This document shows positions 6,394 to 14,135 of a DNA stretch of 23,556 nucleotides, in pieces (position 1 is the stretch's first letter; each line of letters starts with the position of its first letter). Under the pieces are notes generated by a model. It was given only the letters and a program-made list of their open reading frames with translations. It was not told the origin of the DNA and did no database searches. This DNA comes from Gemmatimonadota bacterium (GTDB taxonomy: Bacteria > 4572-55 > J002), in contig RFFQ01000184.1 in the NCBI GenBank assembly GCA_003697105.1, forward strand, positions 1 to 23,556. The letters are read 5' to 3'. The translations under genes were made by a program, and so were the position numbers.

Positions 6394-6522
6394 GTCCGCA
6401 GTTAGCAGTGAGCCAAACTCCCAAATCAGGATTTAGGGATTAGGATTTAGGGGTTCATGTAATTCTCTAACTCCCGAACTCCTCAACTCCCAGATTCCTC
6501 AACTCCCAAACTCCCCAACTCA
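6394..6522. repeat. Intergenic direct repeat, copy B (upstream of flavodoxin)
   Basis: Second copy, in the same orientation as copy A. The core 6404-6465 is shared with 5739-5800, then a tail of AACTCCCGAACTCCTC-like units runs to the stop codon of the membrane/coiled-coil gene, whose TGA (6520-6522) abuts the last unit. Weaker similarity (a TCCG...AG.CAGTGA pattern) extends a few bases further upstream, to about 6394. Tail unit number and phase differ between the copies, as expected for slippage of short tandem repeats. Confidence 0.85.
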
Positions 6523-8372: not shown

Positions 8373-8406
8373 AAAAAGCCTGTGAACCCTTAAATGGTGC
8401 ACAGGC
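8373..8406 (-). terminator. Rho-independent terminator of the TIR/TPR cassette
   Basis: In minus-strand RNA a 7-bp stem GCCTGTG/CACAGGC (8400-8406 pairing with 8378-8384) encloses a 15-nt loop. It is followed by five U residues (8373-8377). It lies about 25 nt after the stop codon of the membrane TPR gene. Confidence 0.8.
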
Positions 8407-8431
8407 GTATTCTAAAGCTATTGAACCTTGG

Positions 8432-9640
8432 CTATGCCGCCGTATGGGGGGGTTGTTTTAACTCCTCCAGTAGGGTATGTACCGCTTGTTCCCCGTTCGT
8501 ATCATTGGTTTGCCGGTAGATTTTCAAAGCGTCCTCGGCAAGTTTTCGGGCTAATTCGGGGCGTTGTTCCGCTTGATACACCCGTGCCAAACCCAAATTG
8601 GCACCTGCCATAAGATGGCTCAGGGTGGTATCCTCAGCGGCAAGTGAGATCGTTTTGATGTACCATTTACTAGCATCGCCCCAATCCTTTTGGGTCAATG
8701 CCAACTGTCCCAAATTATAGCTGTATTCGGCTTGTTTTGCTGTTTTTCTGACCCGTTCCGCCAGATAAAATGCGTGCTTAAAATATTGCTGGGCAATCTC
8801 CGGCTTGTGTTGGTGTTGAGCGTATTCTCCCAACCGATTATAGACCATTCCGAAAATATCGTAATAAATATCCCGGTCAAAACTGGGGTCTTTGCGGATA
8901 AACTGGTGTACTGCCAGCTGAACGTCTTCCAATAATTTCGATTTTTCTGGGGTATCGTCCGGTTCACCAATCCACGTGTCTTGGCTGATAATATTTTCGT
9001 CGGAAAGTTGCTGAATAATAAAATCTAAGTCCCGGTATTGTACCAGTTCCCGGATAATCAGGGAATAGCGCCCGGAATTCCCCCAGAGGGTGAAATCCAT
9101 ACTCAGTTTTTTCTTTTCTTCTTGGGTGAGATCATGAATTCCTTGCAGAATAAACTCGGCTTCATTCTGGAAGCGCTCTTTATCAATGATGTTGTTGTGG
9201 AGTTTTTTGATTTCGCGGTCGATACGCTGGGTCAGTTTGCGGTTGATGGAGGTATTGAGGTAATCGTAAATGAAATCCCGAAGTGTTTTGAGTTGGGGCG
9301 TATTTTCCCCTTGGGAGACGGTCGGCACTGCCACGGTGGAGATCACGCCAATAAACAGCCCAGCCCCCAATAAGCTTTGCAAACTTTTGTTTAGGAAGAG
9401 GTCATTCCCAAAACTGATGCCCAGCGCCGCCAGAGCATACGTAACCCCCGCCGCACCACAGGCAGAAACAAACACGTAAAAATAGGCGGAAAAAAATCCG
9501 GCAAGATACCGTTGGGTGGTTGGATACTTGCGGGCTAAATCCACCCATGCAAAGATAATCCCCAAAAAAAAGCCCCACACTGCCGGATTCACGGTGGCGG
9601 GGTTAACCAGATTTTGTAAGGTTGAAAGTACCGTTGCCAT
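8432..9640 (-). CDS. Membrane-anchored TPR protein, partner of the TIR protein
   Basis: A 402-residue protein with three hydrophobic stretches at the N-terminus (about 20-35, 46-74 and 87-106; the middle one may cross twice). A charged helical region (115-260) leads to C-terminal TPR repeats: residues about 266-300 (Y-N-R-L-G-E-Y...A-x-x-Y-F-K-H-A), 306-335 (Y-N-L-G-Q-L-A...A-S-K-W-Y-I-K) and 346-380 (A-N-L-G-L-A-R-V-Y...A-R-K-L). The repeats probably face the cytoplasm. Its ATG lies 3 nt after the TIR stop codon with no clear ribosome binding site of its own, so translation is probably coupled to the TIR gene. No catalytic domain is recognised. By context it could be the membrane sensor or pore-forming effector of a TIR-linked system; this is inference. 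It could also be an ordinary TPR scaffold. Confidence 0.75.
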   Translation of the reverse strand: MATVLSTLQNLVNPATVNPAVWGFFLGIIFAWVDLARKYPTTQRYLAGFFSAYFYVFVSACGAAGVTYALAALGISFGNDLFLNKSLQSLLGAGLFIGVISTVAVPTVSQGENTPQLKTLRDFIYDYLNTSINRKLTQRIDREIKKLHNNIIDKERFQNEAEFILQGIHDLTQEEKKKLSMDFTLWGNSGRYSLIIRELVQYRDLDFIIQQLSDENIISQDTWIGEPDDTPEKSKLLEDVQLAVHQFIRKDPSFDRDIYYDIFGMVYNRLGEYAQHQHKPEIAQQYFKHAFYLAERVRKTAKQAEYSYNLGQLALTQKDWGDASKWYIKTISLAAEDTTLSHLMAGANLGLARVYQAEQRPELARKLAEDALKIYRQTNDTNGEQAVHTLLEELKQPPHTAA

Positions 9641-9643
9641 GAG

Positions 9644-10231
9644 TTATTTTTGTTTAACCTGTTGGATGACGTTGGCGATGGTCGAAAAGGGATCAGTGGT
9701 GATATTCGGAATCTCAACCACATATTTGCTCTCCAAAAAGAGCGGGAAATGCGGCTTTTTCGGGGTGAGCACCAGATGAATGAAGGGGATATTTTGCTGG
9801 CTCAGTTCGATCAATACCCGGGCGAGGTCGTTATCGCGCCAAGGCTCCACATGCCCGGTCACGATCAATCCGGTTTCAAAAGTGCAAGTCATCCCCGAAA
9901 TAAGCGCGTTCCAATCATCAAAAATGGAAAGCTGGTAATCCTGCATCAAATGGGTTTTGGTTTGTTCGGCAAATTCAGCGTCTTCCCGGTGATAGCCAAG
10001 GAAGGCATCAAAATGATGCTCGGGGGCACTCTGTTTGGTTATTGGGGGAGTGGCATTTAGTTGCTGGATTATTTTCAGTTCCCGCTGAAGTTCCTTGAGT
10101 TCGGATTCCGTTGATTCGATTTGCTTTGCCAGCTTAAATTTAAGGGCGGAATCCGTTTCGTGAATATAGGCTTGTCGTAGCCGGGTTAATTTCTCGTTTA
10201 GAAGCTCGTGAAGATCGCCTCGTTTATTCAT
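9644..10231 (-). CDS. TIR-domain protein with helical effector-associated-like N-terminus
   Basis: The ATG at 10231 is preferred (GAGGTGG 3-4 nt upstream) over TTG at 10252, giving 195 residues. Residues 7-52 form a charged helical hairpin (HELLNEKLTRLRQAY, then KFKLAKQIESTESELKELQREL) of a kind common at the N-termini of bacterial TIR and CHAT proteins in conflict systems. A TIR domain follows (about 73-176): FDAFLGYHRED at 74-84 is the first strand and BB-side motif, LSIFDDWNALISG at 101-113 is the second strand region, and PWRDNDL at 130-136 plus IPFIHLVLT at 148-156 are later elements. Bacterial TIR domains often cleave NAD+ or make cyclic ADP-ribose signals. The segment between ISGM and EPW is about 10 residues shorter than in typical TIRs, so catalysis is uncertain. 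It is the first gene of a two-gene unit with its own promoter. Confidence 0.8.
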   Translation of the reverse strand: MNKRGDLHELLNEKLTRLRQAYIHETDSALKFKLAKQIESTESELKELQRELKIIQQLNATPPITKQSAPEHHFDAFLGYHREDAEFAEQTKTHLMQDYQLSIFDDWNALISGMTCTFETGLIVTGHVEPWRDNDLARVLIELSQQNIPFIHLVLTPKKPHFPLFLESKYVVEIPNITTDPFSTIANVIQQVKQK

Positions 10232-10279
10232 GTTCCACCTCAGTTTCCTCAAATACGTTCCGCGCTATTTCATTTTCTC

Positions 10280-10308
10280 ATTGTAAACCGGTGGCGGATG
10301 CTTGTCAA
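10280..10308 (-). promoter_or_regulatory. Near-consensus sigma70 promoter of the TIR/TPR cassette
   Basis: On the minus strand, TTGACA (10303-10308), a 17-nt spacer and TACAAT (10280-10285) match 11 of 12 consensus positions at ideal spacing. Transcription would start near 10273, about 42 nt before the TIR ATG. The -35 box begins 8 nt after the DUF58 stop codon. Confidence 0.75.
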
Positions 10309-10316
10309 CGGAAATA

Positions 10317-11189
10317 TTACCGGACAAAATTGCGGTGTCGTAAATAGTTGAGAATTAAATCTTCAAAAGGGATGTTCGTGGTAGCGCGAATATGCCGGAT
10401 GCCTCGTTTCCGGCAATAAGATTCAATTTCATTACAAAATGCTTGCACCGTCCGGCGATAGGCATTGAGGGTGCGTTCCCCGGTGCTAATTTCGCAGGTT
10501 TCCCCGGTTTCCGCATCCGTCAGTTTGAGATCGCCGGTAACGGTGGGGTTTATCTCTTCCGGGCTGAGCAGATGGATGGTGAAGACCTCAAAGTTACGGT
10601 GTAGAAACCGTTTGAGTGCCATCTGGTAGCCCTGCGGGTCTAAAAAGTCGGAAATCAGAAGAGCCACACCGGTGCGCTTGATGCGTAAACTGTAGTCTGC
10701 GGCGGCGCGATGTAGATTTGTACCGTCCTTGGGTTCAAGTTGTTCCAGCTCTTTCAATATTCGGAAAATCTGCCCCTTACCGCGCACGGGGGGGATCATT
10801 CGTACCAATTTTGCATTGAACGTTGCGACACTAACCCGGTCAAGGTTCACTAAGCTGATATAGGCAAGGGCGGCGGCGATTTTAGCGGCATATTCCAGTT
10901 TGGTAGGTGTTCCAAAATTCATGGAAGCGCTGGTATCGATCAGGATATACACATGAAGGTCTTCTTCCTCTAAAAACAACTTGAGAAAGAGCCGTTCCAA
11001 CCGCCCAAAGATATTCCAATCCACATAGCGGAAGTCATCGCCAACCGAATAGGTTTTATAATCGGCAAATTCGACACTATGTCCCCAGCGGGAGCTCCGA
11101 CGTTCCCCCGACGTTGCTCCGCGATGAATTTGTTTGGAAAGTAGGGTTAATCGTTCAAGTTTGGCTAAAAAATCGGCATCCAGTACCAT
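10317..11189 (-). CDS. DUF58 family (VWA-like) protein
   Basis: The ATG at 11189 has a GGGAG ribosome binding site; an upstream TTG at 11204 is in frame but would include that site. The 290-residue protein has the DUF58 signature: a conserved G-R-R-S-S-R-W-G-H-S-V-E-F-A-D-Y-K-T-Y block, then VGDDFRYVDWNIFGR. A VWA-like half follows, with a MIDAS-type DTSASM motif and a second acidic element at the end of ALLISDFLD. DUF58 proteins usually pair with MoxR AAA+ ATPases and membrane VWA proteins and may recruit substrates for metal insertion or folding. The function in this organism is unknown. No MoxR gene is in the window. The usual membrane partner type (6520-8298) lies downstream, beyond the TIR cassette. 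Confidence 0.9.
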   Translation of the reverse strand: MVLDADFLAKLERLTLLSKQIHRGATSGERRSSRWGHSVEFADYKTYSVGDDFRYVDWNIFGRLERLFLKLFLEEEDLHVYILIDTSASMNFGTPTKLEYAAKIAAALAYISLVNLDRVSVATFNAKLVRMIPPVRGKGQIFRILKELEQLEPKDGTNLHRAAADYSLRIKRTGVALLISDFLDPQGYQMALKRFLHRNFEVFTIHLLSPEEINPTVTGDLKLTDAETGETCEISTGERTLNAYRRTVQAFCNEIESYCRKRGIRHIRATTNIPFEDLILNYLRHRNFVR

Positions 11190-11296
11190 AGACCGCTCCC
11201 GCAAAAGATGGCAAGAGACAAAGACACCTGCTAAACCTAGTTATTAACTCTCGTAAAATCAAGGATAAAGGTCGATTATTCCAGTGGAAAAAACCG

Positions 11297-11325
11297 TTGA
11301 CGCTGACCCTGTTTTACCGTATTAT
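11297..11325 (+). promoter_or_regulatory. Distal promoter candidate for the PIN/TRAM gene
   Basis: TTGACG (11297-11302), a 17-nt spacer and TATTAT (11320-11325) match 10 of 12 consensus positions. If used, it would give a 5' leader of about 180 nt. Confidence 0.5.
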
Positions 11326-11430
11326 TTTAGATACACTTTAATTTTCATCAGGGTACTTTCCAATCATCCATTTTATTTTTACCCTCATTTTTCCACCACG
11401 TATCACGTTTGTTCATGTGTCTAGGATGTG

Positions 11431-11459
11431 TTGGAAGGCACATCACCGATATCTATAAT
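11431..11459 (+). promoter_or_regulatory. Proximal promoter candidate for the PIN/TRAM gene
   Basis: TTGGAA (11431-11436), a 17-nt spacer and a perfect TATAAT (11454-11459) lie 52 nt before the ATG. The start codon at 11512 also has a strong AAAGGAGG ribosome binding site at 11495-11502. Confidence 0.6.
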
Positions 11460-11511
11460 AACTCACAAGTTTTGTTTAATCCCACTATAACGCTAAAGGA
11501 GGTATCTCTTC

Positions 11512-12570
11512 ATGAAAAATGCCCTCCATTGGGCAAGAGCAATCCTGACGATCTGTTCTATTTTATTTTTCGTTTTGCTACTCAATGATGGTTCTTCAAT
11601 GGGTGCCGTTATCGGGTTTATTGTCGGATTCGCTATCGCTATCACAATCATTAGCATTGAAATGATTTTTGCAAAGTTGACGGCAAAACAGATCGCATTT
11701 GGACTTTTTGGCTTATTAGCAGGATTGCTCGTTGCAAATTTACTGGGTTATACCATTATCCATATTACGCAATTGCAAACCACTGAAGCGATCCAATCTG
11801 GTTTATTGATCGCGTTTAATCTCTGCTTTGCCTATTTAGGCATTATTACCGGCATTCGGAAACGTGATGAGTTTCGGATTTCACCTTTTTTTCAGGGAGC
11901 AGGTGGTGCGAGTTCAAGTAAAGTGCTGGATACGAGTGTCATTATCGATGGGCGTATTGCCGACATCTGTGAAACTGGCTTTTTAGAAGGCACGCTGTTG
12001 ATCCCCAAATTTGTTCTGCAGGAATTGCAATATATTGCGGATTCTGCGGATGCCCTCAAACGCAACCGTGGGCGACGCGGCTTAGATATTCTCAAAAAAA
12101 TTCAGGAACAAAATGACGTGGCGGTGGTGATCGATGATCGCGATTTCCCGGATTTGAAAGAAGTCGATTCCAAATTGGTCAAATTGGCAGAGACCATCAA
12201 AGGAAAAATTTTAACCAACGATTTCAATCTGAATAAAGTCGCCGAATTGCACGGTGTACCGGTGCTCAACATCAATGAATTAGCGAATGCATTAAAACCG
12301 GTCGTCTTACCCAATGAAGAAATGCGCATCCGGTTGATGAAACGCGGTAAAGAATACGATCAAGGGGTGGGCTATCTGGAAGATGGCACCATGGTTGTGG
12401 TGGATGAAGCCCGCAATTATATTGGTAAAACCGTGGATGTTGTAGTGACGAGCGTACTCCAAACGACTGCTGGACGGATGATCTTCTCCAAACTAAAAAG
12501 CACTGATAGCAGTTCCTCCGGGACAGGACAATCCACCGGTGGTTCCAATTGGAACACGTCCCGCTACTAA
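11512..12570 (+). CDS. Membrane-anchored PIN/TRAM domain protein (YacL-like)
   Basis: A 352-residue protein. Four hydrophobic segments (about 8-24, 29-50, 60-82 and 94-114) precede a PIN nuclease-fold domain: LDTSVIIDGRIAD with Asp140, VLQELQ with Glu171, EVDSKLV with Asp219, and TNDFNLNK with Asp237. All the acidic residues expected for metal binding are present. A TRAM-type beta domain follows (about 268-328, GVGYLEDGTMVVVDEARNYIGKTVDVVVTSVLQTTAGRMIF), then a low-complexity Ser/Gly tail. This is the architecture of Bacillus subtilis YacL and its relatives in Firmicutes, cyanobacteria and other phyla, which are likely membrane-associated ribonucleases or RNA-binding proteins. The gene has its own promoter candidates and a terminator (12619-12656), so it is monocistronic. 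Confidence 0.93.
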   Translation: MKNALHWARAILTICSILFFVLLLNDGSSMGAVIGFIVGFAIAITIISIEMIFAKLTAKQIAFGLFGLLAGLLVANLLGYTIIHITQLQTTEAIQSGLLIAFNLCFAYLGIITGIRKRDEFRISPFFQGAGGASSSKVLDTSVIIDGRIADICETGFLEGTLLIPKFVLQELQYIADSADALKRNRGRRGLDILKKIQEQNDVAVVIDDRDFPDLKEVDSKLVKLAETIKGKILTNDFNLNKVAELHGVPVLNINELANALKPVVLPNEEMRIRLMKRGKEYDQGVGYLEDGTMVVVDEARNYIGKTVDVVVTSVLQTTAGRMIFSKLKSTDSSSSGTGQSTGGSNWNTSRY

Positions 12571-12618
12571 AAGAGAGACGCTTTTGAGAGTATAATGGGA
12601 CCATCCAAAGTTGCGATG

Positions 12619-12656
12619 AAAGGATGCTAGGCATAGATAAGCATCCTTTTCTTTTT
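12619..12656 (+). terminator. Rho-independent terminator after the PIN/TRAM gene
   Basis: A perfect 10-bp stem AAAGGATGCT (12619-12628) and AGCATCCTTT (12640-12649) has an 11-nt loop. It is followed by TCTTTTTG. The lexA -35 box starts only 3 nt further on. Confidence 0.88.
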
Positions 12657-12658
12657 GC

Positions 12659-12688
12659 TTGACAAGTTCGGACGTGTACTGTAATTAT
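12659..12688 (+). promoter_or_regulatory. lexA promoter
   Basis: A perfect TTGACA (12659-12664) is followed at 18 nt by AATTAT (12683-12688), 4 of 6 with TATAAT. The -10 box lies inside the LexA operator (12677-12696), the usual arrangement for lexA autorepression. A strong AGGAGG ribosome binding site (12710-12715) sits 8 nt before the ATG. Confidence 0.7.
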
Positions 12689-12696
12689 AAACAGGT
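12677..12696 (+). promoter_or_regulatory. LexA operator (SOS box, CTGT-N8-ACAG type)
   Basis: The sequence TACTGTAATTATAAACAGGT contains a perfect CTGT-N8-ACAG dyad with an all-A/T spacer. It matches 15 of 20 positions of the Escherichia coli SOS box consensus. It overlaps the lexA -10 region and precedes the gene by 27 nt. The site type is established for gammaproteobacteria; use by this LexA is inferred from position. Confidence 0.85.
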
Positions 12697-12723
12697 TTAA
12701 CATTCATTCAGGAGGATAATTTG

Positions 12724-13347
12724 ATGGCACGTTCGTTAGAATTAACCAAAAAGCAAAAAGCTGTGCTGAATTACATTGAAACGTACTACGCTCGCAAAGG
12801 TTTCTCTCCTACTTATGAGGAAATTGCGGAGCGTTTCGGTTTTGGCTCGTATAACTCGGTAACGGATTATATCAAAGTACTCAAGAAAAAGGGCTATCTG
12901 GACAATGAAGCCGGCAAAAGCCGGGGAATTGTTCCAATCCGGATCGCCCGAAATTGGTCGATCCCTTTGGTCGGGACGATCACCGCCGGAGAGCCTATTG
13001 AAGCGGTGCAAAATATTGAAACGTATCTTAATTTGAGCACCATGGGCATTGATAACCGTAACGAAGATAAATTTGCCCTGCGAGTCCGGGGTAATTCGAT
13101 GATCAATCGCGGTATTCGGGATGGGGATATTGTAATTATTCGTAAACAGAAAGAAGTCGGCAAGCGGGATGTTGCCGCCGTTCGAGTTGGCAATGATGCC
13201 ACCCTGAAATATGTAGAACGTACCAAAACACGAATCAAACTCGTTCCCGATAATAACCGAATGAAACCGCTCAGTTACAAGATAAGCCCGGAGCTGGACA
13301 TCGAGGTTTTAGGCAAAGTGATCGGGTTATACCGGGATGGTGTGTAA
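12724..13347 (+). CDS. lexA: LexA repressor, SOS response regulator
   Basis: The ATG at 12724 follows a strong AGGAGG at 8 nt (an in-frame TTG sits just before it), giving 207 residues. The N-terminal winged helix-turn-helix is residues 1-70, with recognition-helix region GFGSYNSVTDYIKVLKKKG. The hinge and autocleavage site is VGTITAGEP, cut between Ala88 and Gly89. The S24 protease domain has Ser125 (in VRGNSMINRGIRDGD) and Lys162 (in ATLKYVERTK), matching Ser119 and Lys156 of E. coli. RecA-stimulated self-cleavage would derepress SOS genes. The recognition helix keeps the Ser and Asn of the E. coli protein, although neighbouring residues differ (Thr and Asp for the two Glu). An SOS box lies in its own promoter. 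Its TAA overlaps the coaX ATG by one base. Confidence 0.97.
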   Translation: MARSLELTKKQKAVLNYIETYYARKGFSPTYEEIAERFGFGSYNSVTDYIKVLKKKGYLDNEAGKSRGIVPIRIARNWSIPLVGTITAGEPIEAVQNIETYLNLSTMGIDNRNEDKFALRVRGNSMINRGIRDGDIVIIRKQKEVGKRDVAAVRVGNDATLKYVERTKTRIKLVPDNNRMKPLSYKISPELDIEVLGKVIGLYRDGV

Positions 13348-14135
13348 TGGCACGGGCGACCTTATTGGCGATTGATATTGGCAATACCCATACGGTGATC
13401 GGAGTTTATCACGCCACACAATTACTTTATCTGTGGCGGATCAACAGCGACCGTGAGCGCACCGTTGATGAGGTTGGTGTATGGGTGCACGACCTTTTCC
13501 GGATTCATACCATTGATCCGGCAACACTCCAACACGGGATTATCGCCTCCGTTGTGCCACGCTTAACCCGCACATTTACGGAGATGATGATGCGATACTT
13601 CGATCTTTCGCCGTTGGTTGTGACACATCAAATTCCATTAGGTATTGAACTTCGCGTAGATTATCCGGCGGAAGTGGGTGCGGATCGTTTGGTCAACTCC
13701 GTCGCGGCATTGCATTTGTATGCGGATAACTGTATTGTGGTCGATTTTGGTACGGCGACCACGTTTGATGTGGTAGCGAAAGAGGGTGCATACTTGGGCG
13801 GCGTGATTTCACCCGGTATCCAGACCGCCGCCAGTAGTTTGGCGGATAATGCGGCACAACTGTACCGGGTTCCGTTGACGAAACCTCCCCGTGTAATCGG
13901 TAAAAGCACTATTGAAGCAATGCAAGCGGGTATTTTTTATGGGGCTGTAGGACAATGTGATGCCATTGTTCGCCAATTGAAGGCGGAGTGGGGTGTTGAA
14001 TCCTGTAAAGTGATCGCAACGGGGGGACTCGCAACCCTTCTCGTGACCGATTCCCATGAAATCGAGACCGTACATGAGGATTTGACCTTACTTGGTTTGC
14101 GTCTGATTGCGGAGCGGAATTTCAGTACTACATAA
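13347..14135 (+). CDS. coaX: Type III pantothenate kinase
   Basis: A 262-residue enzyme for the first step of coenzyme A synthesis (pantothenate to 4'-phosphopantothenate), of the ASKHA fold. It shows the phosphate-1 loop DIGNTHTVIGVY at 10-21, EVGADRLVNSVAAL at 109-122 with the catalytic Asp113, DFGTATTFDVV at 133-143, GGVISPGIQTAASSL at 151-165, and a C-terminal KVIATGGLA adenosine element. Type III kinases are not inhibited by CoA and usually need a monovalent cation. The start overlaps the lexA stop as TAATG, so expression should follow the lexA promoter and rise during SOS induction. No separate promoter is visible. Confidence 0.96.
   Translation: MARATLLAIDIGNTHTVIGVYHATQLLYLWRINSDRERTVDEVGVWVHDLFRIHTIDPATLQHGIIASVVPRLTRTFTEMMMRYFDLSPLVVTHQIPLGIELRVDYPAEVGADRLVNSVAALHLYADNCIVVDFGTATTFDVVAKEGAYLGGVISPGIQTAASSLADNAAQLYRVPLTKPPRVIGKSTIEAMQAGIFYGAVGQCDAIVRQLKAEWGVESCKVIATGGLATLLVTDSHEIETVHEDLTLLGLRLIAERNFSTT

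Follow-up and report, generated by a model that had tools for sequence, protein, structure and literature searches.

The window analysed here is a stretch of 23,556 nt (contig RFFQ01000184.1) from the draft genome, 96.85% complete, of a Gemmatimonadota bacterium (GCA_003697105.1). Two intact open reading frames with ATG starts lie side by side on its minus strand. The first (9644..10231) encodes P0001, a protein of 195 aa with an EAD-like and a TIR-like part; the second (8432..9640) encodes P0002, a protein of 402 aa with three membrane segments, a helical middle part and TPRs. The stop codon of P0001 and the start of P0002 are separated by 3 nt. Ahead of the two genes lies a sigma70-like promoter (TTGACA-17-TACAAT, 10280..10308, minus strand) with 11 of 12 consensus positions, the top-scoring site of the region, which begins 8 nt past the stop of a DUF58 gene (10317). 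Behind them follows an intrinsic terminator (GCCTGTG...CACAGGC and then TTTTT, about 8373..8406, minus strand) of -16.3 kcal/mol (z -4.9 against shuffles), and directly after it comes the promoter-like site of the next gene, P0004 (8370-8341, minus strand, 10/12 match). The terminator hairpin was missed by a simple scan, probably because its stem is interrupted. As promoter-like sites number 13 where 7.3 are expected by chance, both the 11/12 and the 10/12 site stay consensus matches. All of these elements, namely the two adjoining genes (10231-9644 and 9640-8432), their own promoter right behind DUF58 and a terminator ahead of the next promoter, had been put forward in a preliminary description of this DNA, and all of them were found again. 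The 3-nt spacing together with a single promoter and a single terminator suggests joint expression; judged by its sequence, the two-gene unit is well delimited as a separate transcription unit, its promoter boundaries being consensus matches only.

P0002 carries hydrophobic segments at residues 15-37, 45-78 and 86-111, all of them within the first 111 residues, and TPRs at about 256-395 (TPR_12, E 2e-14), which agrees with its earlier reading as a multi-pass membrane TPR protein. In the structural model (mean pLDDT 57) the TPR helices are confident and well formed; the rest is of low confidence, with a helical middle part. Pfam, PADLOC and NCBIfam models returned no known effector domain for P0002, SIR2, SLOG and macro included. 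Its N-terminal half (the first 238 residues) has no believable relative in 386 genomes, where it gave six weak matches (E 2e-4 to 4e-3). All six were set aside. Three that were inspected overlap unrelated proteins: L023 falls on an MFS transporter, L026 on a transporter of NRAMP-like type and L027 on a protein of other make-up. Two others (L024 and L025) carry stop codons.

Residues 70-195 of P0001 (9647..10024, minus strand) form a divergent TIR_2-like domain. The Pfam model TIR_2 (PF13676) stays below threshold here, covering only the first 33 residues with E 0.19 and 12.6 bits against a cut-off of 28. The domain can nevertheless be aligned over about 107 residues (FDAFL...PLFL) with the TIR of P0006, a genuine TIR_2 protein from a genome of the same class, hereafter the class-mate. 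The score of this alignment is 75 compared to 25.6 +/- 4.0 for shuffles, a distance of 12 sd, and phmmer gives E 1.2e-7 as a single comparison. The initial TIR call was correct though weak, and on the strength of these alignments we regard this part of P0001 as a true but divergent TIR homologue. Its AF2 model is poor (pLDDT mostly 30-67), and because this part of the model is unreliable, a fold search with P0001 gave nothing useful.

In alignments, about 9-10 residues are missing from P0001 where the alphaB helix should come after the BB-loop glycine, a shortening absent from about ten other alignable TIRs. The conserved glutamate of TIR domains lies in or beside this helix. SARM1 and plant TIRs depend on the conserved glutamate to cleave NAD+ (PMC8635717). 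Because the alphaB segment near the catalytic position is largely missing, NAD+ depletion by P0001, which had been envisaged at the outset, becomes doubtful, and the domain is likely to be catalytically inactive. Loss of catalysis is not certain, since Glu119 may be kept at G+6 when GMTCTFE is aligned with GIPWQKE. The shortened TIR favours a role of scaffold or adaptor for P0001, with P0002 as its membrane anchor or sensor.

The N-terminus of P0001 (residues 1-59, 10055..10231, minus strand) is an EAD9-like helical hairpin, a putative adaptor domain. AF2 places helices at 3-24 and 28-59 with pLDDT of about 70-94, so that a small helical domain is predicted at this end of the protein. It was initially described as an effector-associated-like helical N-terminus, a description that we retain at the level of E 6e-4 and 20 bits for Pfam EAD9, below the curated cut-off of 25 bits; no member of the group scores above the gathering cut-off in either of the two genomes (0/2). 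The same hairpin opens two other proteins of the host, P0005 and P0007. The copy of P0001 shares 41-43% identity with the other two, against which it scores 14-16 sd above shuffles; pairwise scores lie at 14-17 sd overall, and the likeness spans only about 55 residues of the hairpin. In P0005 the hairpin is followed by a TIR_2 domain (E 1e-13), in P0007 (L009:1468-2571, plus strand) by membrane helices and CarboxypepD_reg-like repeats; P0007 is a possible partner of P0001. In the class-mate the hairpin is N-terminal on an nSTAND2 ATPase, P0008, and C-terminal on the TIR protein P0006. The gene of this EAD-carrying nSTAND2 ATPase adjoins there that of a 1161-aa protein with an N-terminal membrane part and, by eye, a STAND-like ATPase part; the two genes are at L098:8767-9987 and 10106-13591 (minus strand).

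A hairpin profile was built from five proteins (P0001, P0005, P0007, the class-mate nSTAND2 protein and P0006) and matches in the genomes G000 and G001. Searched against 290 genomes, it produced two further matches with E of about 3e-4. One is a weaker match at the C-terminus of an open reading frame in the distant genome G048 (E 2.9e-4), which we read as caspase-like from its sequence motifs. The other falls within the frame of an ATPase and probably arose by chance.

EADs are terminal helical domains, often present several times in one genome, that are attached to various effectors, signalling domains and STAND cores; they pair with copies of themselves and thereby bring effectors and signalling proteins together, and EAD9 is counted with the domains whose main task is to recruit signalling components (PMC7159879, PMC8195603). 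P0001 fits this principle. Like the EAD systems of Kaur et al. (2020, 2021), the host and its class-mate possess a small terminal helical domain in several copies per genome, on TIR, STAND or membrane proteins, and the nearest Pfam model is EAD9, with the reservation that all members found here score below its cut-off. In the host's 96.85%-complete draft genome no STAND, VMAP or iSTAND core carrying the hairpin was found, whereas the class-mate has it on the nSTAND2 protein P0008; a further difference from those systems is the partner, a three-helix membrane TPR protein.

We propose, with a probability of about 0.42, that the unit consists of a TIR adaptor and a membrane anchor or receptor working within an EAD network of the host. 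P0001 would bind other proteins with the same hairpin, for example P0005 with its TIR and P0007 with its membrane helices, and the shortened TIR of P0001 would offer a surface for docking or assembly in place of NADase activity. Through its three membrane helices P0002 would keep the complex at the inner membrane, and its TPRs would bind partners or a trigger. The response so produced would probably be one of stress, cell death or defence against invaders. Joint action of P0001 and P0002 is suggested by gene order, the one line of evidence for their partnership, as a single instance of the pair turned up in the data searched. The pair probably falls under an established type of cell-death or defence signalling. 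Its parts are of known kinds; their combination, in which an EAD-like domain and a shortened TIR share one protein and the partner is a membrane TPR protein, did not turn up in the collections and literature searched.

Upstream of the unit lies the DUF58 (vWA-like) gene (10317..11186, minus strand; DUF58 4e-43, VWA_2 6e-12), whose product is, of the host's three compared DUF58 proteins, the closest to those of coiled-coil/MoxR/DUF58 operons. Downstream lies P0004 (6520..8298, minus strand), with N-terminal membrane segments and a long coiled coil, whose relatives elsewhere are found upstream of MoxR-DUF58. Its N-terminal domain has relatives in 24 other sampled genomes, and a P0004-type gene is absent from the sole available genome of the same class. 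The two kinds of gene had been described as usual neighbours, which accords with 8 of 20 fetched loci, where a DUF58 gene follows the P0004-type gene on the same strand within about 8 kb; in six of these eight a MoxR gene stands between them. Short imperfect GGGAGTTGAGGA-type repeats were noticed at 6440-6512 of the window, between P0004 and a flavodoxin gene.

Both flanking genes are thus of the MoxR-DUF58 (Bat-type) kind, but the locus differs from such operons in two respects. Firstly, other loci usually have the coiled-coil gene first, then MoxR and then DUF58, whereas the order here is DUF58, TIR, TPR, P0004. Secondly, no MoxR was matched on the contig of the window; the host's MoxR genes are on contigs C150, C48, C16 and C153, and the best-matching one (54-63% identity) is on C48 with no DUF58 recognised around it. 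A vWA-MoxR ternary system needs MoxR, a vWA protein and a third component in one locus, which is not the arrangement seen here. At L113:6600-7655 (plus strand) stands the MoxR gene that most closely resembles those of coiled-coil/MoxR/DUF58 operons; after it comes not DUF58 but a predicted membrane protein, and this site reads as a split Bat-type operon. Given the cognate-type MoxR on C48 and the altered gene order, the original operon has probably been broken up in the host lineage, and the earlier notion of an insertion into an intact DUF58 locus is too simple: DUF58 comes first, and the locus has been rearranged.

From this neighbourhood it could be argued that the pair serves the envelope or a stress response together with the DUF58 and coiled-coil neighbours, its TIR and EAD being only protein-binding modules without an anti-phage role. 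The type of the flanking genes speaks for it, as do the codon usage of both genes, which fits the rest of the window, and the remaining neighbours, which are housekeeping genes (LexA, pantothenate kinase, phosphomannomutase, SurE). We nonetheless hold this account to be somewhat unlikely. The unit has a promoter and a terminator of its own. Loci elsewhere that have both flanking genes do so without the unit; among those listed, none contains a TIR-TPR unit between DUF58 and P0004-type genes. Moreover, outside this locus the EAD-like domain sits on proteins of conflict type, i.e. the nSTAND2 ATPase, a TIR protein and, by the weak match, a caspase-like protein.

The preliminary description saw in the unit a candidate new defence module, self-contained. 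A rival account of this kind takes the two genes for an anti-phage abortive module resembling Thoeris: the TIR protein would degrade NAD+ or produce a nucleotide signal, and the membrane TPR protein would act as sensor or killing effector. A TIR gene and a membrane partner under one promoter are consistent with this, and so is the possibly kept glutamate at G+6; TIR and EAD domains are also typical of conflict systems (PMC8195603). What the unit shares with Thoeris (ThsB, a TIR protein, with ThsA) is the neighbourhood of a TIR gene and another gene, and membrane segments are present in some ThsA proteins too. However, no effector domain of a known kind was detected in P0002, neither SIR2-SLOG nor macro as in ThsA-type partners, and P0001 is not matched by ThsB models. 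The shortened alphaB, unlike about ten other aligned TIRs, further weakens the case for such a module.

Mobility would have lent support to this module. No homologous pair of P0001 and P0002 was found in 98 genomes, in two scans of genome contigs, in viral contigs or in plasmids. These searches, and one of phages with P0001 only, returned nothing beyond EAD-like or chance matches. No direct repeat of at least 8 nt was found at the junctions of the unit, and no mobile-element, defence or tRNA gene is found among the annotated neighbours in the window. The idea of a mobile module is therefore not borne out, considering that no homologous pair turned up in up to 386 genomes, that codon usage is native and that junction repeats are lacking; nor did the search reveal the pair co-occurring in unrelated loci or near defence genes. 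An abortive module of two genes seems to us improbable. Least convincing of all is a decaying remnant of a former EAD-TIR system that lost its TIR helix and its partners: the shortened TIR and the N-terminal half of P0002 without relatives (386 genomes) would suit it, but neither reading frame is interrupted, the codon usage resembles that of the host, the promoter match is strong, the terminator stable and the TPR helices of P0002 well formed in the model.

The host also encodes three giant proteins (L100:3510-9581, L101:222-3638 and L102:1747-6063, all on the minus strand) with 5, 3 and 3 tandem TIR_2 domains, respectively, set apart by helical spacers and followed by membrane and WD40 parts. 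As we read the alignment, the G+6 glutamate is kept by the final TIR of each array but not by the first. A protein of this layout with a single TIR is encoded by the class-mate (L103:478-3291). Arrays of tandem TIRs also exist outside the host, as three TIR-like matches (L130, L137, L140) fall into one open frame of 1494 aa on contig C52 of the distant genome G323.

Returning to the adaptor-and-anchor reading, a bolder form of it can be imagined. P0001 would be a TIR of structural function only, with most of its alphaB helix lost, and would be paired with P0002 as a dedicated membrane TPR receptor; the pair would then be a bacterial counterpart of the adaptor TIRs of animals and would connect a membrane sensor, by EAD pairing, to catalytic EAD-TIR proteins in other parts of the cell. 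We consider this form improbable.

Most work on bacterial TIR domains concerns enzymes. If the adaptor-and-anchor explanation is true, EAD-type adaptor networks would be placed in a poorly sampled lineage, represented by one class-mate among the genomes searched. A TIR encoded by an intact gene, lacking the helix beside the active site and standing next to a membrane partner, would then offer a simple bacterial model for TIRs that act as scaffolds, as they do in animal innate immunity.
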